Assembly (NCBI GenBank): GCA_003284375.1
Contig: QBVL01000001.1
Coordinates: 62,001 to 126,000, forward strand
Direction of reading: 5' to 3'
Source of the DNA: Prochlorococcus sp. AG-311-J23
Lineage (GTDB): Bacteria; Cyanobacteriota; Cyanobacteriia; PCC-6307; Cyanobiaceae
DNA: 64,000 nucleotides
Shown here: one piece after another, positions 1-12,926 of the stretch
Position numbering within the stretch: the first letter of the stretch is position 1
Layout of the letters: the number at the start of each line of letters is the position of its first letter
Notes under the pieces: model-generated
Seen by the model: the letters and a program-made list of their open reading frames with translations, nothing else
Told to the model about the DNA's origin: nothing
Databases searched by the model: none
Program-made: the position numbers and the translations under genes

Positions 1-435
1 ACGATAAATTTCTTTTTTACTATTTGAACGAGTATCTTCCAGTGCTATCGCATGTCTAAAATATTTACTTGCTTCTTCATATTCTTCTAAATCGTGCTTA
101 CAATAACCTATCGATTTATAAGGGTATGGATCTTGATCATCTAAATTTATTGCACCCTTGAACAACTCAATTGCCTCTTCATATTCTTCTAGGTCATATT
201 TACAATCACCGATATATGAATATATATCTGGATTCTGATTATCTAATTCAAGTGCTCTCTTGAAATACTTTATTGCTTCATCGTATGCTTGACATTTAGA
301 ATTTGATAACCCAAGAACAATACATGCTTCTACACTTTTACATGATTTTATTTCTTCTAAATTCTTTTCATATAACTTACATTCATCTTCTATATTGAAT
401 TCTGTTCCGTCAGCAGCACGATAAATTATATCCAT
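1..435 (-). CDS. TPR-repeat protein, C-terminus cut by window edge
   Basis: This reading frame is absent from the ORF track because it runs off the left edge. It starts at the ATG on the minus strand at 435 and stays open for 145 codons. After an N-terminal segment (MDIIYRAADGTEF) come tandem 34-residue tetratricopeptide units such as YDEAIKYFKRALELD, YEEAIELFKGAINLD and YEEASKYFRHAIALE, so it should form a helical protein-protein interaction scaffold. The DNA itself repeats with a 102-base period, for example near 71 and 173. There is no signal peptide. It lies inside the tRNA-bounded accessory region, so it is probably cargo of the mobile element. The partner is unknown. The family call is sure, the function is not. 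Confidence 0.85.
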   Translation of the reverse strand, partial: MDIIYRAADGTEFNIEDECKLYEKNLEEIKSCKSVEACIVLGLSNSKCQAYDEAIKYFKRALELDNQNPDIYSYIGDCKYDLEEYEEAIELFKGAINLDDQDPYPYKSIGYCKHDLEEYEEASKYFRHAIALEDTRSNSKKEIYR

Positions 436-2475: not shown

Positions 2476-4059
2476 TTGGCAGTCAAAGGTAATAAAAAGA
2501 AAGAAGCATCTGCTCAAGATTTCAGAGCAGTTCTCTGGGCAAGTGCAGATAAACTTCGTGCTCAGATGGATGCTGCTGAGTATAAGCATCTTGTTTTGGG
2601 GTTGATTTTTCTCAAATATATTTCTGACACTTTTGTTGAGCAGCAGCAAAATGTTTTGAAAATGGTGAGCGACCCAGACTCGGATTATTACCTTGGAGAT
2701 GCCCCTGATGATCATCAAGAAGCATTAGAAGATCGTGATTACTACACGCAAGAGAATGTGTTCTGGGTTCCTTCGGAAGCACGTTGGGAATCTCTTAGAA
2801 ATCAGGCAAAGCAACCAGATATTGGACAACTCATTGATAAAGCATTGGTTGCGATTGAGAACGAAAATATAAATCTACGATCCAAGTTAGATAAACGATT
2901 TGGTGCTGCTCAATTGGAACCAGGTCGAATGGGTGAATTGGTAGATCTGATTTCCACTATTGGGTTTGCTGAAGATAGAAATTCAGGAGACGTATTGGGT
3001 GAGGTTTATGAATATTTCTTAGGTCAATTTGCCAGTGCTGAAGGTAAGAAGGGTGGGCAGTTTTATACACCTGCTCATGTAGTCAAAACTTTAGTTGCTG
3101 TGTTAGCACCAGATGAAGGTCGTGTTTATGACCCATGTTGTGGTTCAGGTGGAATGTTTGTTCAAAGTGAAAGGTTTGTTCAAGCACATGGGGGAAGAAG
3201 AGATCAAATATCCATCTTTGGACAAGAGAGCAATCCCACTACGTGGCGTTTGGCAACAATGAACCTAGCGATCCGTGGATTTGCTGCAAATCTTGGAGAA
3301 GGACCTGCTGATACCTTTGCTCGTGATCAACATCCTGATCAGAAGTTTGATTACATACTTGCTAATCCACCATTCAATATTTCGGATTGGGGTGGAGAGA
3401 AATACGAAAGTAATCCTCGTTGGATTTATGGAAGACCACCGGTAGGAAATGCCAACTATGCATGGTTGCAACACATGCTTTGGAAACTTCGACCAGGTGG
3501 TCAAGCAGGTGTGGTGCTGGCAAACGGATCAATGAGTTCCAACACCTCTGGTGAAGGAAAGATTCGTGAAGCGATGGTACGAGGTGATGTCGTTGAAGTA
3601 ATGGTTGCTTTACCTGGACAGTTGTTCGTCAATACTCCGATTCCAGTTTGCTTATGGTTTTTGACTAACGATAAAACTAAACGAGGACGAAATAGACTTG
3701 GCGAAACTTTGTTCATTGATGCTCGTCAAATGGGCACAATGAAGAATCGTGTTGAGAGAGTTCTAACTGATGAAGATATCTTGAAGATTGCTCATACTGT
3801 TCACTCTTGGCGTAATGATCAGGACTATGAAGACATCTCTGGTTTCTGCTACAACGCAAGTCTTGAGGAGATTGAAAAGAACAGTTTTTTCCTAACTCCT
3901 GGGCGGTATGTAGGTTCACCAGACGAAGAAGACGATGGAGAACCTTTTGACGAAAAGATGAAAAGACTTACTGATTTACTCAAAGAACAACAACAACAAG
4001 GGGTGAATTTAGATCAGCAAATTGCTGAGAATTTGAAGAGGATAGGATATGACATCTAA
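2476..4059 (+). CDS. hsdM: Type I restriction-modification DNA methyltransferase subunit HsdM
   Basis: HsdM transfers methyl groups from S-adenosylmethionine to adenine within the site chosen by HsdS, and forms the HsdM-HsdS-HsdR complex. The 527 residues contain the N-terminal helical domain (residues 10-150), the cofactor-binding motif DPCCGSGGMF near residue 218 and the catalytic NPPF motif near 296, the normal gamma-class N6-adenine methylase order. The length is normal. The start is a TTG with no clear ribosome binding site; no in-frame ATG is better placed. The last 11 bases overlap hsdS. The gene is intact and is element cargo, likely protecting the host and element from HsdR and from phage DNA. 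Confidence 0.95.
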   Translation: MAVKGNKKKEASAQDFRAVLWASADKLRAQMDAAEYKHLVLGLIFLKYISDTFVEQQQNVLKMVSDPDSDYYLGDAPDDHQEALEDRDYYTQENVFWVPSEARWESLRNQAKQPDIGQLIDKALVAIENENINLRSKLDKRFGAAQLEPGRMGELVDLISTIGFAEDRNSGDVLGEVYEYFLGQFASAEGKKGGQFYTPAHVVKTLVAVLAPDEGRVYDPCCGSGGMFVQSERFVQAHGGRRDQISIFGQESNPTTWRLATMNLAIRGFAANLGEGPADTFARDQHPDQKFDYILANPPFNISDWGGEKYESNPRWIYGRPPVGNANYAWLQHMLWKLRPGGQAGVVLANGSMSSNTSGEGKIREAMVRGDVVEVMVALPGQLFVNTPIPVCLWFLTNDKTKRGRNRLGETLFIDARQMGTMKNRVERVLTDEDILKIAHTVHSWRNDQDYEDISGFCYNASLEEIEKNSFFLTPGRYVGSPDEEDDGEPFDEKMKRLTDLLKEQQQQGVNLDQQIAENLKRIGYDI

Positions 4060-5371
4060 TTGGACTCGGAAATTTCTTTCTGAGGTATGTACAAAAATAG
4101 GAAGTGGACAAACACCTCGAGGTGGTAAAGAGTCATATAAGGGGGGGGATTTTTCATTAGTGAGAAGTCAAAATATTTATAATCAAGGTTTTACAAATAC
4201 CGGGTTAGTTTATATCGATGATAAGCAAGCAGATCAGTTATCAAATGTTGAGGTTTTGAGTGGAGATGTATTGATCAATATTACAGGAGATTCTGTAGCA
4301 AGAAGTTGCATGATTCCTGAAAGAATCTTACCTGCCAGAGTCAATCAACATGTTGCTATTTTGCGAGCAGATAAGAAAAATCTTCATAACGGATACCTAA
4401 GATATTTCTTGATATCTCCAAAAGTTCAAAGTTTACTTTCTTCTCTTTCGTCGGGTGGTGCTACGAGGAAAGCACTTACAAAATCAATGTTGGAGTCATT
4501 AGAAATAGTCTTGCCAACTTTTTCTGATCAAAAAGCAATCGCTCATATACTCGGCAAACTTGATGAAAAAATTGAACTAAATCAAAAGACTAATGAAACA
4601 CTTGAAGGAATAGCGACGGCACTTTTCAAATCTTGGTTTATTGATTTCGATCCAGTAAAAGCAAAAGCAGAAGGTCATTCAACTGGATTGCCTGATGAGA
4701 TGAGCGAGTTATTTCCAGACTCATTCGAAAATTCTGAATTAGGTGAGATTCCGTGCGAATGGTCTATCTGTTCAATAGGAGATTTATTGGATCTTGAGAG
4801 AAAGTCAATACAACCTGGGGATGTACCTGAAGAAGTATTTGCTCACTACAGCATTCCTGCTTTTGATGAAACGATGCTTCCTTCAAAAGAATTGGGGCAA
4901 TCCATCAAAAGTAACAAATACCTTGTCAGTGAGGGTGTCTTCTTAGTATCAAAACTAAATCCAAGGTTTCCAAGAATATGGTTGCCATCATTTAGCGACA
5001 AGGAAAGAGGAATATGTTCTACTGAGTTTTTAGTTTGTAGAACTAAGAAATCAATTGGTATTTCATTTGGATATTGTCTATCTAAAAGTCCAGAAGTGAT
5101 TCAACAAATGATTGAATTAGCATCTGGGACATCTAATAGTCATCAACGAGTACGACCAATAGATTTCACATCAATTACTACTATTTGTCCGTCGCAACCT
5201 TTGCTCAATTTATTTACTGAAGAGGTTGCACCTTTTCTTCAAAAGATACCTCACCTTCTTGAGCAAAATCTAATATTGAGTAATTGTCGCGATGTTCTAC
5301 TCCCAAAACTCATCTCAGGTGAACTAAGAGTTCCTGATGCGGAAAAGATGCTTGAGGAGGTTGGCATCTAA
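4049..5371 (+). CDS. hsdS: Type I restriction-modification specificity subunit HsdS
   Basis: HsdS gives the complex its DNA target. The 440-residue protein has the usual two-fold layout: a first target recognition domain (about 1-160), a conserved helical spacer (DQKAIAHILGKLDEKIELNQ, about 160-185, with the following TALFKSWFIDFDPV), a second recognition domain beginning around LGEIPCEWSICSIGDLL (about 230-400), and a second helical spacer near the C-terminus ending in LPKLISGELRV. Both halves are full length, so a bipartite target is expected, but it cannot be predicted by eye. It overlaps hsdM by 11 bases and hsdR by one (TAATG), so all three subunits are translated together. A Gly-rich tract of nine G residues near 4141 is a possible slippage site. 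Confidence 0.94.
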   Translation: MTSNWTRKFLSEVCTKIGSGQTPRGGKESYKGGDFSLVRSQNIYNQGFTNTGLVYIDDKQADQLSNVEVLSGDVLINITGDSVARSCMIPERILPARVNQHVAILRADKKNLHNGYLRYFLISPKVQSLLSSLSSGGATRKALTKSMLESLEIVLPTFSDQKAIAHILGKLDEKIELNQKTNETLEGIATALFKSWFIDFDPVKAKAEGHSTGLPDEMSELFPDSFENSELGEIPCEWSICSIGDLLDLERKSIQPGDVPEEVFAHYSIPAFDETMLPSKELGQSIKSNKYLVSEGVFLVSKLNPRFPRIWLPSFSDKERGICSTEFLVCRTKKSIGISFGYCLSKSPEVIQQMIELASGTSNSHQRVRPIDFTSITTICPSQPLLNLFTEEVAPFLQKIPHLLEQNLILSNCRDVLLPKLISGELRVPDAEKMLEEVGI

Positions 5372-8300
5372 TGGCATTCATGACGGAAGAAGAACTTGAG
5401 ATGTTGTCTCTGGAGTGGTTCAAAGAGATTGGATATTCGTTTATTCATGGTCCACATCTTGCAACAGATGGTAAATCACCAGAAAGAGAAGACTTTCGCC
5501 AAGTAATACTCATAGAACGTCTTCGTACGGCACTAAAAAAACTAAATCCAGAAGTTCCATCAGCAACGATTGAGTCAGCAGTTCTTCAACTTACAAATCC
5601 AAATACTCCTGGACTATTGCCTTCTAACAGGCAGTTTCATAAATGGATCACAAGTGGTCTGCCCATTACATATATGGATGGAGACCAAGAGATTGGTATT
5701 CGCCTCAAGGTTATTGGATTTGATAATCCTGCTTCTAATGATTGGTTGGTAGTAAATCAACTAGAAGTGATAGGTCCTAAACGGACTCGAATTCCTGATG
5801 TGGTCGTATATATCAATGGTCTACCCATAGCAGTAATTGAACTCAAAAATCCTACTGATGAGAAAGCAGATATATGGGCAGCATTCAACCAACTTCAAAC
5901 TTATAAGGACAATATTCCAGATCTATTTACTCCAAATGTTCTTTTAGTGATTAGCGACGGTACTTATGCAAAAGTTGGTTCTCTTTCTGCTTCTCAAGAA
6001 CGTTTTCAACAATGGAGAGTGATTGAGCAGGAGCAAGATCTTGACCCCTTAGGCAAATTCCGAGAATTAGAAACTCTTGTCCGTGGACTATTTGACAAAC
6101 AGCGATTACTTGATTTCATTAGATCTTTTTGTCTTTTTGAGGATGATGGAGAGATCATCAAGAAGATTGCTGCTTATCACCAATTCCATGCAGTAAGAAC
6201 AGCAGTTGAAAGAGTTGTAGAAGCAAGTAAACCCGATGGAGACAGGAAAGGTGGGGTTGTGTGGCATACCCAAGGTGCTGGTAAAAGTATTGAGATGGCA
6301 TGTTTAGCAGGCAAGTTACTAACTGATCCACGTCTAAAAAATCCAACATTGGTAATGGTTACTGACCGTCAAGATTTAGATGGTCAGTTGTTTGGAGTCT
6401 TTGCTGGAGCAAAAGAACTTTTAGGAGAAGCACCAAAGCAAGCAGACTCAAGACAGGACTTACGAGATATTCTTGATAACAGACCTAGTGGTGGAATTAT
6501 TTTCACTACTATTCAGAAATTCGCTACGGAATCAGATGAGGAAAAATTCCCAACTCTGACTGATCGAAAGAATGTAGTAGTGATATGCGATGAAGCACAT
6601 AGAACTCAATACGGATTCAAGGGGCGTATTGACTCAAAAACAGGAGAGATCAAATACGGATTAGCAAAGGCACTAAGAGATGCTCTACCACAAGCAACAT
6701 TTCTTGCTTTTACAGGAACACCTATCTCCCAAGATGATCGAGATACTCAAGCAGTTTTTGGGCATTACGTTTCTATCTACGACATTCAACAAGCAGTAGA
6801 AGATGGTGCAACAGTTCCGATCTACTACGAATCACGATTAGCGAAGTTGACACTCAAAGATAGTGTTTTGCCATTAGTGGATGAAAAAGTTGATGAGATT
6901 TTTGAAGATGAGGATGATATCCCCTCTAATGAAAAAGCAAAAGGTAGATGGGCAGCATTAGAGGCACTTGTAGGTGCTGAACCTCGTCTAAAAGAAGTTG
7001 CATCAGATCTAATCGCTCACTATGAGCAACGTTCTAAGACTCAACCAGGCAAGGCAATGGTAGTAGGAATGAGTCGTGATATTTGTGCTCGTCTTTACAA
7101 CACAATTATTGGTCTACGTCCTGATTGGCATGATTCTGATCATATGAAGGGTGCAATCAAAGTTGTCATGACAGCATCAGCATCTGAGTCAAAACTTCTT
7201 CAACCTCATCACACCAGTAAGCAACAGAAGAAAGATTTAGAAAAACGTTTCAAAGATCCTGCTGATCCTCTCAAGATTGTTCTGGTTCGAGATATGTGGT
7301 TGACGGGATTTGATGCTCCTTGTTTAGCAACTATGTATGTAGATAAACCAATGAAAGGTGCAAATCTTGCTCAAGCAATTGCACGCGTAAACAGGGTTTT
7401 TAGAGATAAACCAGGTGGTCTTATTGTTGATTACATTGGCATTGCTCCTCAACTCAAAGAGGCACTAGTAACGTATACAGCAGCAAAAGGCAAAGGGAGA
7501 CTGAATCTCGAGACAAGTGACGCGGTACGTATTCTCAAAGAGCAACTACAAATTGCCAAAGATATTCTTCATCCAGTGGATTTCAGTGGATTCCAAGAAA
7601 AAAGTAAACGACTAGAGACTTTATCTATTTGTCTCGATCACATACTTGCCATCACGGGTGGTAAGCAAAGATTTTGTGACACTGTTTTGAAAATTACGAA
7701 AGCAAATGCTCTCTGTGGAACAACAGATGAGGTCAAGGATCTTGAAGATGATGTGGTATTTCTTCAAGCACTAAAAGCACTTTTGATCAAAGGTCCTGGA
7801 CAAAAACCTCCAAGAGAAGGAGTTGATTATCAATTGCAGCAACTTCTTTCAGACTCTTTAGTTGCCGAGGGTGTCACCGATGTTTTCAAAGTTGCTGGTC
7901 TCAAGAATCCAGATATCAGCATTATGTCGGATGCTTTCTTAGAAGAAGTCAGCAAAATTCCCCAAAAGAATTTGGCAGTTGAATTACTTCAACGTCTCAT
8001 AAAAGATGAACTGAAAAGTAAGTTCAAAACAAACGTCGTCAAACAAAAACGTTTCAGTGAAATGCTGACTGCATCATTGAATAAATATTCAAATCGAGCA
8101 ATTGAAGCAGCACAGGTTATTGAAGAATTGATAGCAATGGCGAAGAAGTTCCGTGAGGATCTTGAGCGTGGTATTGCCTTAGGACTTGATTCTTCTGAGC
8201 AATCTTTTTATGACGCCCTAGCAGATAATCCATCTGCTCAAGAATTGATGAAAGAAGAGATATTAGTAAAAATGGCAAGGGAACTTGCTGAATTATTGAG

Positions 8301-8469
8301 GCGAGATGCAACTATCGATTGGCAATACAAAGAGAATGTTCAAGCAAAACTAAGACTCAAAATAAAGACTCTACTAAAGCGTTATAAGTATCCTCCTGAT
8401 CAACAAGCAATTGCAGTTGACTTAGTGCTTCAACAAGCGGAGACGTTAGGAGAAGAACTTACATCTTGA
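5371..8469 (+). CDS. hsdR: Type I restriction endonuclease subunit HsdR
   Basis: HsdR translocates DNA using ATP and cuts unmodified DNA at a distance. The 1032-residue protein has an N-terminal PD-(D/E)xK nuclease domain with PDVVVYINGLPIAVIELKNP around residues 140-165, a superfamily 2 motor with Walker A (TQGAGKS) near 300, the DEAH box (CDEAHRTQYGF) near 405, motif III FTGTP near 447 and motif VI AIARVNR near 670, then a long helical C-terminal domain that docks onto the methylase. All catalytic motifs are present and the frame is unbroken. The start overlaps the hsdS stop. The 3' end overlaps a minus-strand small gene by 40 bases. Confidence 0.95.
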   Translation: MAFMTEEELEMLSLEWFKEIGYSFIHGPHLATDGKSPEREDFRQVILIERLRTALKKLNPEVPSATIESAVLQLTNPNTPGLLPSNRQFHKWITSGLPITYMDGDQEIGIRLKVIGFDNPASNDWLVVNQLEVIGPKRTRIPDVVVYINGLPIAVIELKNPTDEKADIWAAFNQLQTYKDNIPDLFTPNVLLVISDGTYAKVGSLSASQERFQQWRVIEQEQDLDPLGKFRELETLVRGLFDKQRLLDFIRSFCLFEDDGEIIKKIAAYHQFHAVRTAVERVVEASKPDGDRKGGVVWHTQGAGKSIEMACLAGKLLTDPRLKNPTLVMVTDRQDLDGQLFGVFAGAKELLGEAPKQADSRQDLRDILDNRPSGGIIFTTIQKFATESDEEKFPTLTDRKNVVVICDEAHRTQYGFKGRIDSKTGEIKYGLAKALRDALPQATFLAFTGTPISQDDRDTQAVFGHYVSIYDIQQAVEDGATVPIYYESRLAKLTLKDSVLPLVDEKVDEIFEDEDDIPSNEKAKGRWAALEALVGAEPRLKEVASDLIAHYEQRSKTQPGKAMVVGMSRDICARLYNTIIGLRPDWHDSDHMKGAIKVVMTASASESKLLQPHHTSKQQKKDLEKRFKDPADPLKIVLVRDMWLTGFDAPCLATMYVDKPMKGANLAQAIARVNRVFRDKPGGLIVDYIGIAPQLKEALVTYTAAKGKGRLNLETSDAVRILKEQLQIAKDILHPVDFSGFQEKSKRLETLSICLDHILAITGGKQRFCDTVLKITKANALCGTTDEVKDLEDDVVFLQALKALLIKGPGQKPPREGVDYQLQQLLSDSLVAEGVTDVFKVAGLKNPDISIMSDAFLEEVSKIPQKNLAVELLQRLIKDELKSKFKTNVVKQKRFSEMLTASLNKYSNRAIEAAQVIEELIAMAKKFREDLERGIALGLDSSEQSFYDALADNPSAQELMKEEILVKMARELAELLRRDATIDWQYKENVQAKLRLKIKTLLKRYKYPPDQQAIAVDLVLQQAETLGEELTS

Positions 8470-9345: not shown

Positions 9346-10710
9346 TTATCTTACGGATTTAGTAAGTGTGTACACACTTGTCGGAACATTTTGCCGAATT
9401 TTAGAAGCAAGTTTCTTATCAGCAATGTATTTCAGATAAGTCTTCTGCAACTGATCAGGACTTGTATGACCATTACTTGCAAATGAAGTGATGTCTGGGT
9501 ACTTGCCCAAAGTAGGTGCATCTTCAAGCATTAGTCGGAATGCTGTATGTCTAATAGTTGTCCATGATTGTCCGCCTTGAAACTTTATATCTGATGCTTC
9601 AATGGCATATTTCAGAAGATGATTCAAAAGATCCCTGACACCATTTTCAGATTGTCTACTGACATGAGGAGCAACTAAAAAACCTTGTGGTTTTCTTTTG
9701 TTCAATCTTCTCCAGAACTTATAAGCATCAGGTCTGTAGTGGGTTGTCTCATGGATTTCTCTGTCACCTTTAGTCTTCTGAAGATTACAAGTAACCTCAT
9801 CATCAGACTCCTCAAACCATTCACTCGTTAGTCTTCCCATATCTTCAGATCTAAAAAAGAAGAACCACTGAAGAAGTAGAGCATCATGTAGATCAACCCA
9901 ATTACGTTGGTTATATCTATTGAACTTGAAATCAAGGTTGAAGTATTCCTCAGGAGTAAGAGAATTTTTTGCAGTACCACCAGAAAGTTCATTCACTGTT
10001 TTGAGTAATGCCTCCCACTGACTTTTCTTCAAGTGAGCAACCTGTTTGTATTGTTTGGTGATCTCTGGAAAATCAGGAAATTTATGACCTGAATAATCAT
10101 CAGCAGCAATATCAAAAAGTTTGTTTATAAGAGTCTTCAGTTCTGCTTTAGTTCCACTGCCATTACTGTTATTTCTCGTCTTTGCTTGAAGTTCTAGTAA
10201 GTCGAAATAGTCTCGAAAATGTTGTTTAGTTATCTCATCAAGGGTGATTGAAGAAAAAGGTTGATCAGCAAGACCATAACCAGAAGCATTCCACTTCCTA
10301 AGTTCCTCACGTTTCCACTTCTTGAAACCTCGCTTCGGTTCTTGTATTGGTACTTCCCTTCTCCAATACTGATCCCAGTAATGCGACAAACAGTGCTTAC
10401 CAGAATTGGCATCTTTTATTGCTAATAATTTCTTCTGCTGCTCAGTACACCAATGAATAGCAATCTTCGCTGCCTCCTTAGGTTCATCAGTTCGAGTAGA
10501 CCATGAGATAGACCTACGTTTCTTAGAAGTTCTCTTGCGATTATCAATGTCTTCTGGTGGCAACCAATCAGCAAATAAGTAAGGAGAATTACTTTGCTTT
10601 TTTATGACCAGATTTGTTGGATATCCAGTGTGCTTATTCCCAATAGATAGAGCATTCCTATGGTCATGAACATTCAATCTATTCCATTTTTCAGGTAATG
10701 AACTCTTCAT
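9346..10710 (-). CDS. Tyrosine recombinase (integrase) of a tRNA-targeted element
   Basis: This enzyme would integrate and excise the element by strand exchange through a covalent 3'-phosphotyrosine. In its 454 residues, the C-terminal catalytic domain shows the first arginine (FRSEDMGRLT, about 290), a beta-hairpin lysine (KTKGDREIH), box II as TTIRHTAFRL, a GHTSPDQLQ motif and the nucleophile in KTYLKY (about 430). Box II has Thr where the usual HxxR motif has His. The N-terminal 200 residues fit arm-binding and core-binding domains. The gene starts at ATG 10710 and faces the tRNA fragment about 150 bases away. No excisionase is recognised nearby. It resembles recombinases of Prochlorococcus tycheposons, which is an inference from context. 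Confidence 0.88.
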   Translation of the reverse strand: MKSSLPEKWNRLNVHDHRNALSIGNKHTGYPTNLVIKKQSNSPYLFADWLPPEDIDNRKRTSKKRRSISWSTRTDEPKEAAKIAIHWCTEQQKKLLAIKDANSGKHCLSHYWDQYWRREVPIQEPKRGFKKWKREELRKWNASGYGLADQPFSSITLDEITKQHFRDYFDLLELQAKTRNNSNGSGTKAELKTLINKLFDIAADDYSGHKFPDFPEITKQYKQVAHLKKSQWEALLKTVNELSGGTAKNSLTPEEYFNLDFKFNRYNQRNWVDLHDALLLQWFFFFRSEDMGRLTSEWFEESDDEVTCNLQKTKGDREIHETTHYRPDAYKFWRRLNKRKPQGFLVAPHVSRQSENGVRDLLNHLLKYAIEASDIKFQGGQSWTTIRHTAFRLMLEDAPTLGKYPDITSFASNGHTSPDQLQKTYLKYIADKKLASKIRQNVPTSVYTLTKSVR

Positions 10711-10711
10711 A

Positions 10712-10800
10712 CTTACCGACCAGAAGTCTTGCTACTACAGCGATTTCACCGTTTCCTTGTCCACATTATAGCACACTTTGGTCGGTAAGCAGTCGGTAAG
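10712..10800 (-). promoter_or_regulatory. Recombinase control region with three TTACCGAC motifs
   Basis: Read on the minus strand, two direct copies of CTTACCGAC (10792-10800, and 10780-10789 as CTTACCGACC) overlap the -35 region of a promoter whose -10 is TATAAT (10765-10770). A third copy, inverted (GGTCGGTAAG on the minus strand, 10712-10721), lies just before the start codon. No good -35 hexamer is present, so the repeats may bind an activator, a repressor or the recombinase itself as arm sites. Confidence 0.6.
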
Positions 10801-10856: not shown

Positions 10857-10880
10857 CCCCCTTCGAATCTGGGTGCCGCC
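10857..10880 (+). other. 3' fragment of a tRNA gene (probable tRNA-Cys), element attachment site
   Basis: CCCCC, the T-loop TTCGAAT, the T-stem strand CTGGG and the acceptor strand TGCCGCC appear in correct order and spacing. They match the 3' end of cyanobacterial/chloroplast tRNA-Cys(GCA) as I recall it. Two bases are missing in the 5' half of the T-stem and no D-arm or anticodon arm precedes it, so it is not a functional tRNA. It fits the duplicated 3' end left at the far side of an element integrated into an intact tRNA lying left of the window. Confidence 0.75.
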
Positions 10881-11218
10881 TTAATTATTATTCGTTTAAT
10901 TTTCCTGCAAAACCCTTCCAGTAAAATGCTCCATGTGTAGCGAGTAGCAAGTTTCAAGAAGGTTCAGAAATTAATAAATTGATTTTGATACCAGATCTTA
11001 ATATTGATCACATAACCATTCTTACAGTTAGCGTCTAAAAGAACCACTAGCAAAAGCTTGTAAGTAATCAGGATGACAAATGTTTACATCTTATATTAAC
11101 TACTTGATTAAATATTTTTCTATGTTGTGAAGGTTTTTTTTCATTACAATAAAATAGAAGGATTCACATAGAAACATTATTCATGAATTAATATTAATTA
11201 TATTAATCAATAAGAACA
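10881..11218. other. Intergenic region at the island/core junction
   Basis: This is 338 AT-rich bases between the tRNA fragment and the next gene. No ORF, RNA gene or clear hairpin is seen. TATATTAA-like sequences just before 11219 could be part of a promoter for the downstream gene. This is where ordinary chromosome appears to resume. Confidence 0.5.
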
Positions 11219-11650: not shown

Positions 11651-11724
11651 TATTAGATCCTGATTAATACTTTATATAAAAAACCTATTTTAATACTTTT
11701 ATCTTTAAATAGATAAATTATAAA

Positions 11725-11904
11725 TTAATAATCATTATCTGCCACGCAAATACCTAGACACCTTATTCCGTTACCAGAAGTTCTTCCACAATGATTACAT
11801 AAAACTTTTTCTTGTTGATCTTTACCTTCATTGTCTTTATTTTTTCGTTCAATATTCTGATTTTTTTCAAAATAAGAATCTTGAAAAATATTTAATTTAT
11901 TCAT
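11725..11904 (-). CDS. Small zinc-ribbon-like protein (59 aa)
   Basis: This gene is missing from the ORF track by one residue. ATG at 11904 gives a 59-residue protein with a charged, Asn/Lys/Glu-rich N-terminal half and a Cys-rich tail: CNHCGRTSGNGIRCLGICVADNDY. The CxxC ... CxGxC spacing suggests a four-cysteine metal site. I recall similar Cys-rich small tails in marine picocyanobacteria, but no function. It lies in the 300-base gap between the 143-codon gene and the aldo/keto reductase. Confidence 0.65.
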   Translation of the reverse strand: MNKLNIFQDSYFEKNQNIERKNKDNEGKDQQEKVLCNHCGRTSGNGIRCLGICVADNDY

Positions 11905-11954
11905 GTAAAATACTGATATTAGTTTTCTTTATTTGTATTAACATTAACGAAGTC

Positions 11955-12926
11955 ATGCCTAAAAAAACAATTGGGATTGGTTTTGGAACTTGGGCGTGGG
12001 GGAATAAGCTTGTCTGGGGCTACAAAGCTGGAACAGATGATATTTTACTTAAAAAAACTTTTTTCGAGGCAATAAATGGAGGATTAGATCTAGTTGACAG
12101 TGCAGATTCATATGGCACTGGAAGTTTATTTGGGCAAAGCGAAAAGCTGATCGGGGATTTCTTAGAAGAGTTACCCAAAAGAAAGCTCAAAAAAATTACT
12201 ATCGCAACAAAGCTTGCGCCCTTTCCATGGAGAATTGGTCGCAATGGTCTAAATAAAGCTTTTCAACAAAGTAATCAACGTCTAAAAGGTAATATGACAA
12301 GAGTACAACTTCATTGGAGTACTTATCGATATGCACCCTGGCAAGAAGAACAATTACTAAATGGACTAGGAGATTTGTACGAAAAAGGTTTAATTAAAGA
12401 AATTGGACTCTCTAATACTGGTCCAAAAAGACTAAATTTTTTATTCCAAAACCTGAAAAAAAGAGGAATTAAAATTAGTAGTATACAAATGCAACTTTCG
12501 TTGCTGACAAAACCATCTTTAGAAGATGAAAATATCAAAAATATATGTGAAGAAAATGAAATTGAATATTTAGCTTATAGTCCATTAGGACTGGGAATAC
12601 TAACAGTTCCACCTGATAAACATCCTGAGCCTAAAACATTCTTACGACAAAAATTATTCCAAAGAATACTTCCTAAGACAGTAGAATTGAGAACATTACT
12701 AACTAATATTGCTAAAAAGTATTCAGTTTCTCAGGCGCAAGTTGCCTTGAATTGGATAAGATCTCATGGAGCTAAACCAATAGTCGGGATTCGTAATCCT
12801 TTTCAAGCTAAAGATGCAATTTCTGCACTTAATTGGTCTTTAACTAAAAGTGAAAAACAAAATCTTGATTTTTGCAGGAAAGAATGTCTAGCAAATATGC
12901 CTCAGAATCCTTTTACTAGTCCATAA
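11955..12926 (+). CDS. Aldo/keto reductase family oxidoreductase
   Basis: The 323-residue protein is a TIM-barrel, NADPH-dependent oxidoreductase that reduces an aldehyde or ketone; the substrate cannot be read from sequence. The catalytic tetrad is visible: Asp and Tyr in DSADSYGTG (about residues 52-60), Lys in IATKLAPFPW (about 88) and His in VQLHWSTYR (about 120). The C-terminal NADP-binding part includes GAKPIVGIRNPFQAKDA. The length is normal and the start is ATG. It is a stand-alone gene, convergent with the following minus-strand gene seven bases away. Confidence 0.9.
   Translation: MPKKTIGIGFGTWAWGNKLVWGYKAGTDDILLKKTFFEAINGGLDLVDSADSYGTGSLFGQSEKLIGDFLEELPKRKLKKITIATKLAPFPWRIGRNGLNKAFQQSNQRLKGNMTRVQLHWSTYRYAPWQEEQLLNGLGDLYEKGLIKEIGLSNTGPKRLNFLFQNLKKRGIKISSIQMQLSLLTKPSLEDENIKNICEENEIEYLAYSPLGLGILTVPPDKHPEPKTFLRQKLFQRILPKTVELRTLLTNIAKKYSVSQAQVALNWIRSHGAKPIVGIRNPFQAKDAISALNWSLTKSEKQNLDFCRKECLANMPQNPFTSP

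Follow-up and report, generated by a model that had tools for sequence, protein, structure and literature searches.

A family of picocyanobacterial integrases that is missed by PHROGs and encoded near tRNA-Phe or tRNA-Cys has been described (PMC10187409). A small serine recombinase is frequent but not universal among its elements, the cargo is variable and includes restriction systems, and the integrases are separate from those of tycheposons. The same study states that the mechanism of integration of the family is not known, and neither 'repeat' nor 'att' occurs in its main text. Tycheposons (Hackl et al. 2023), as citing papers describe them, are cargo islands with a tyrosine recombinase that use the 3′ end of a tRNA as their site. 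A different kind of precedent is given by SXT/R391 at prfC (PMC2791158) and IMEVchUSA3 at dusA (PMC8409611), where the element replaces the 5′ end of a gene: integration takes place at the 5′ end and the element provides a replacement N-terminus, the protein gene itself being the target and a new promoter having been shown.

Here we analyze a stretch of 64,000 nucleotides of Prochlorococcus sp. AG-311-J23 (the window), which is contig C1:62001–126000 of the host genome and contains the right end of an integrative element. Like the cluster158946 element (PMC10187409), this element combines a PHROGs-missed integrase with a tRNA-Cys/tRNA-Phe neighbour, a small serine recombinase, restriction cargo and the residues R, K, R and Y; the difference is that att repeats, core, arm sites, empty site and a 5′ cassette are defined here. 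It also has the layout of a tycheposon, with integration at a tRNA 3′ end, an intact tRNA at one end and a fragment at the other, but its integrase belongs to a family that PMC10187409 sets apart from the tycheposon integrases. Because the published integrase tree (PMC10187409) separates the two families, canonical tycheposon was not adopted as the first label. The preliminary description had pointed to tycheposons as well as to integration at a tRNA 3′ end; the latter stands, whereas the repeat extends beyond the tRNA fragment and the element fits the PMC10187409 family better, a match made by described traits. As in SXT/R391 and IMEVchUSA3, a new in-frame 5′ coding end comes from the element, but here integration is targeted to a tRNA, and the gene whose 5′ end is restored overlaps that tRNA in antisense. 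New here are an extension of the repeat by about 80 bp of coding sequence past the tRNA, with an apparent double restoration, motif pairs spaced 11 bp with an inverted copy at each end of the element, and a T-arm core shared by tRNA-Cys and tRNA-Phe elements.

Boundaries of the element and the empty site

The sequence that marks the right end, TTCGAATCTGGGTGCCGCC, lies at 10862–10880 on the plus strand. It has a single exact match in the window, and in 100 shuffles of the sequence it found no match at up to three mismatches. It consists of the T-loop, the 3′ strand of the T-stem and the 3′ strand of the acceptor, and since ARAGORN predicts no tRNA at this position it is a 3′ fragment. It had earlier been drawn as 10857–10880; the first five bases of that interval read CCCCC, compared with CCCAG in the intact tRNA-Cys gene, so the identity to that gene (21 bp, 10862–10882) begins exactly at the T-loop. 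The distance of 147 bases between the fragment as first drawn and a recombinase start agrees with an integrase start at 10710 on the minus strand.

When up to two mismatches are allowed, the 19-mer has two copies only in the whole genome, at C1:72862 and C1:60079. The copy at C1:60079 is the 3′ end of an intact tRNA-Cys(GCA) gene (C1:60028–60098, plus strand). A complete plus-strand gene with this 3′ end had been predicted to the left, and it is found there, 12,783 bp from the window copy; it lies 1.9 kb to the left of the first base of the window, which itself begins 1.9 kb inside the element.

The uninterrupted site can be seen in relatives. In 31 same-genus genomes a tRNA-Cys is located close to the genes that form the right flank here (a 143-aa ORF, an aldo/keto reductase and purM), and most of these genomes lack a large insert; G025 is a same-genus genome that carries one. 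If the host flanks are joined at the T-loop, they align to the four nearest relatives as one HSP of 1,677 bp with 91.4–91.9% identity. The intact tRNA, the empty sites and this alignment support the single element proposed to run from before base 1 to about 10,880. The window fragment is thus confirmed as attR, and the integrative element that it closes on the right measures 12,783 bp and lies in the Prochlorococcus chromosome. In G019 (L064, 3456–4428) frameshifts have split the right-flank aldo/keto reductase into three pieces.

From left to right the element encodes a 102-aa ORF, a serine recombinase (L004:1895–2473, 192 aa, phrog_125 DNA invertase, E 3.8e-49), a TPR protein, a 202-aa ORF, HsdM, HsdS, HsdR, small ORFs and the integrase, which sits at the right end and is oriented inwards. 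Distant relatives of the 202-aa cargo ORF (26–32%) occur near the tRNA-Cys site of two other genomes, at L060:4252–4581 and in L100 (reverse complement, 11719–12144); the one in Synechococcus sp. UW105 lies just outside the element there. Neither the structural (virion) genes of a prophage nor the transfer (conjugation) genes of an ICE were found among the larger ORFs of the element and the small ORFs that were scanned.

Table 1. Features of the right part of the element in window coordinates.
Feature	Position	Strand	Remarks
5′ part of TPR-repeat protein (270 aa, L004:2624–3436)	1..435	−	crosses left window edge
Cargo ORF, 202 aa	582..1190	+	distant relatives near tRNA-Cys site in two other genomes
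HsdM, type I methyltransferase subunit	2476..4059	+	
HsdS, type I specificity subunit	4049..5371	+	
HsdR, type I restriction subunit	5371..8469	+	
Small ORF, 54 aa	8805..8969	−	weak matches to small regulators (aCcr1, NikR models)
Small ORF, 89 aa	8900..9169	−	
Tyrosine integrase, 454 aa	9346..10710	−	R287, K314, R387-H388, Y425 at catalytic positions
Right arm, inverted motif copy	10712..10721	−	1 bp upstream of integrase start codon
Right arm, two direct copies of (G)GTCGGTAAG	10780..10800	+	cores 11 bp apart (10780–10789, 10792–10800); putative integrase arm-binding sites
attR core, displaced tRNA-Cys 3′ fragment (TTCGAAT T-loop to acceptor end plus TT)	10862..10882	+	21 bp identical to C1:60028–60098
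Displaced native 5′ cassette of TIGR03492 gene: TTG start (10957–10955) and 25 codons LKLATRYTWSILLEGFCRKIKRIIIK	10880..10957	−	severed from rest of gene

The long repeat and the antisense gene

The two ends of the element share about 110 bp at 85% identity, some 80 bp of this outside the tRNA. In this outer part the empty sites of the nearest relatives match the right copy at 91.5–92.7% identity and the left copy at 74–76%; the left copy is 90–93% identical to G028, G002 and G003. Because the right copy is relative-like and the left one divergent, the copy beside the intact tRNA is, on this comparison, the one that arrived with the element and the window copy is the displaced native one; this assignment in turn would place the crossover within the tRNA. 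A repeat that runs from the T-loop through the tRNA 3′ end is reportedly typical of the T-loop class of tRNA-integrating elements that Williams is said to have distinguished in 2002. The difference is that the att homology here continues for about 80 bp past the tRNA and codes for part of another gene.

The minus strand of this extension reads TTG followed by (K/R)LATRYTWSI.L...RKIKR, in a frame that runs through the antisense of the tRNA (KAAPRFELGIKDLQSSALPLGHAA) into the LpxB-related gene TIGR03492. The predicted N-terminal peptides, with LATRYTWS or RIRKRDLIIEFLQ, would be joined to the antisense-tRNA stretch KAAPRFELGIKDLQSS. All 32 genus genomes have a start codon (TTG in 31, GTG in one) and an open frame into TIGR03492, and the spacer between the tRNA and the conserved start of the gene has a constant length of 17 codons; the TIGR03492 model begins at residue 69. 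We infer that the tRNA lies wholly antisense inside the TIGR03492 frame and that translation would begin at the TTG, while in-frame TTG codons further downstream could act as alternative starts. In G153 the frame next to the tRNA neither has a start nor connects to the gene, which shows that the antisense overlap is not universal. Our search of open-licence articles returned nothing on a coding sequence antisense to a tRNA or on the TIGR03492 gene family, and no description of a 5′-end replacement by an element combined with an antisense tRNA.

The interval could instead have been kept for reasons other than coding, such as the geometry of the att nucleoprotein complex, a tRNA terminator or a small RNA, with the antisense frame being incidental. 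The spacing from core to arm is indeed nearly fixed in Prochlorococcus-type sites, at 85–90 bp, and both Synechococcus sp. UW105 and the tRNA-Phe elements have a strong hairpin with a T-run in this interval. The coding signature of the cassette is nevertheless far outside neutral expectation: its normalised N/S is 0.187, a value that none of 300 neutral simulations reached (mean 0.92, minimum 0.43), and it contains no stops, whereas in the simulations 19.5 of the 32 sequences have them on average. The other frames have stops and give a normalised N/S of 0.38 to 4.3. The start codon is retained, including one change from TTG to GTG, and the Prochlorococcus cassette has no RNA-fold signal (z +0.6 and 0.05), for which reason RNA structure or a terminator was rejected as the cause of the long repeat in Prochlorococcus. 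Rfam gave no match above the gathering score of any family beyond the tRNA itself. Copies that have been displaced are broken in three of six cases (two stops; one frameshift with start loss), compared with none of the 32 beside a tRNA. We therefore regard a purely non-coding role as unlikely.

We propose the following sequence of events. The tyrosine integrase would recombine the T-loop core CCCAG-TTCGAAT-CTGGG common to attP and the tRNA-Cys(GCA) 3′ end, so that the tRNA would be rebuilt from the copy of the element while the native 3′ end is shifted 12.8 kb to the right. Because the TIGR03492 start lies beyond the tRNA, and the tRNA inside the frame, integration would also sever the start codon and the first ~25 codons of this minus-strand gene. 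Between its tRNA core and the arm sites of its left end the element carries a substitute 5′ cassette, and with it both genes would be restored: the 3′ end of the tRNA and the 5′ end of the opposite gene appear to be repaired together. The element may also supply a promoter; the left end (L004:1000–1500) contains no sigma-70-like promoter match, and such scans are weak evidence. It may still be mobile today and able to excise. Taken as a whole, the account of an attR left by a tRNA-Cys element whose cassette restores both ends seems to us very probable.

Core, putative arm sites and integrase

Elements of the family that can be delimited sit at tRNA-Cys or tRNA-Phe, with CCCCAGTTCGAATCTGGGTGCCGCCTT and CCCCAGTTCAAATCTGGGTCCTGGCAT as the best-case repeats. 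The integrase group follows the tRNA: the window element is at tRNA-Cys, and homologous integrases are at tRNA-Cys or tRNA-Phe. What the two repeats have in common is the T-arm, whose inverted repeat encloses a 7-base loop; this suits the core of a tyrosine recombinase and suggests a crossover in the T-loop. At the tRNA-Phe sites we looked for an overlapping reading frame and found none; the interval from core to arm is a terminator-like hairpin. Strong hairpins with a T-run are found in UW105 and the tRNA-Phe elements at L152:528–610 and L161:7650–7745 (minus), with z-scores of −3.0 and −3.6, as if the element supplied the terminator of the tRNA.

Motifs of the GGTCGGTAAG type occur in 81 kb at the two ends of the element only. 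Each end has two direct copies with an 11-bp period, and an inverted copy that is complete at the right end and nearly complete at the left. The same layout, with its own motif, is found in G025; G067 has direct pairs at both ends and the inverted copy at the right, and in UW105 the layout is the same with motifs that differ between the two ends. The motif pairs are probably arm sites to which the integrase would bind. Through the inverted copy next to its start codon (10708–10721) the integrase could regulate its own gene.

A direct motif pair 85–90 bp beyond the tRNA is present in many sites, several of which have no integrase nearby. Specifically, L039, L040, L043, L054 and L060 have an 11-bp motif pair after the tRNA-Cys and no nearby integrase, and three of them retain a second repeat copy 1–3 kb away. 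Such sites look like remnants of former elements.

The integrase itself has no match in Pfam, NCBIfam or PHROGs. The residues at its catalytic positions (Table 1) read R-K-R-H-Y and are all kept across 15 relatives. Its profile matches canonical tyrosine recombinases weakly (probability 8.6%, E 0.0039), with K314, R387 and Y425 in catalytic register. A structure model from three sequences is poor (pLDDT 41.6), and the best-modelled part even of this poor model is residues 31–100 (confidence about 62–80), a unit of three strands plus a helix whose topology would resemble that of arm-binding domains. Searches against solved structures with two- and fifteen-member profiles gave nothing usable. 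PF00589 matches only a different gene in the host genome, a second and canonical tyrosine recombinase at G000:C22:9231–9707 (L178). Integrases of the family were found in 38 of the 400 family genomes searched. Viral contigs contained no related integrase, and a viral origin of the element was rejected on this ground.

Exchange of cassettes among genomes

If the cassettes were inherited with the gene to which they are attached, their distances would follow those of the gene. Cassette and gene distances have a Spearman correlation of 0.43, compared with 0.66–0.90 for 16 gene segments of equal length. Between the host (G000) and G009 the gene is 92.4% identical and the cassette 74.4%, and between the host and G008 the gene is 61% identical and the cassette 88.5%. 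By these distances, cassettes move independently of the attached gene. In other genera, too, the frame enters the antisense tRNA: the ~150 matches listed, from 251 genomes, begin at query residue 26 or earlier. The residues that precede the tRNA belong to several types with no relation to each other, and the change from one type to another falls at the end of the tRNA. In Synechococcus sp. UW105, MEIQNTPKNPFRGLKEMK adjoins the tRNA and MQYQSPLSGIISK is the displaced version; in G137, MQSQSALSGNFLK adjoins it, and the displaced sequence loosely resembles the first type.

Ordinary homologous recombination between cells could also spread cassettes, with no delivery by elements. Some element-free sites do have chimeric cassettes (G028), as recombination inside the repeat would produce. 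The donor-type cassette, however, directly adjoins the arm sites of the element, flanking gene sequence does not accompany it, and the exchanges in UW105 and G137 run in opposite directions, with a second, displaced copy beyond an element in each genome. We consider this route quite improbable and prefer delivery by the element. A chance match, or a decayed tRNA with no relation to insertion, is an extremely improbable origin of the fragment and was rejected: the shuffled sequences gave no match, the genome has just one other copy, relatives have the empty site, and the junction is clean. After the tRNA-Cys in L053 (G028) and L049 (G026), cassettes appear chimeric, resembling the element close to the tRNA and the native sequence at a greater distance; these are possible scars of loss by recombination between repeats.

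The att architecture of the family described in PMC10187409 now becomes concrete, with a T-loop core, a core-to-arm interval and 11-bp arm pairs, and two different tRNAs are used because their T-arms share the core. The locus also suggests that a tRNA site can bring along a second, antisense gene, in which case an element would do no harm only if it carried a repair for each of the two. We think it likely that tRNA-Cys lies wholly antisense in the 5′ coding end of TIGR03492, a glycosyltransferase-like gene, across much of the marine picocyanobacterial family, and that the N-terminus of this core protein is rewritten again and again by elements that use that tRNA, bring exchangeable N-terminal cassettes, some of them unrelated to each other, and repair the tRNA on the opposite strand at the same time. 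If the TIGR03492 start does lie on the far side of the tRNA, many of the annotations of this gene are likely to be too short, and mobile elements would be swapping its N-terminal part.
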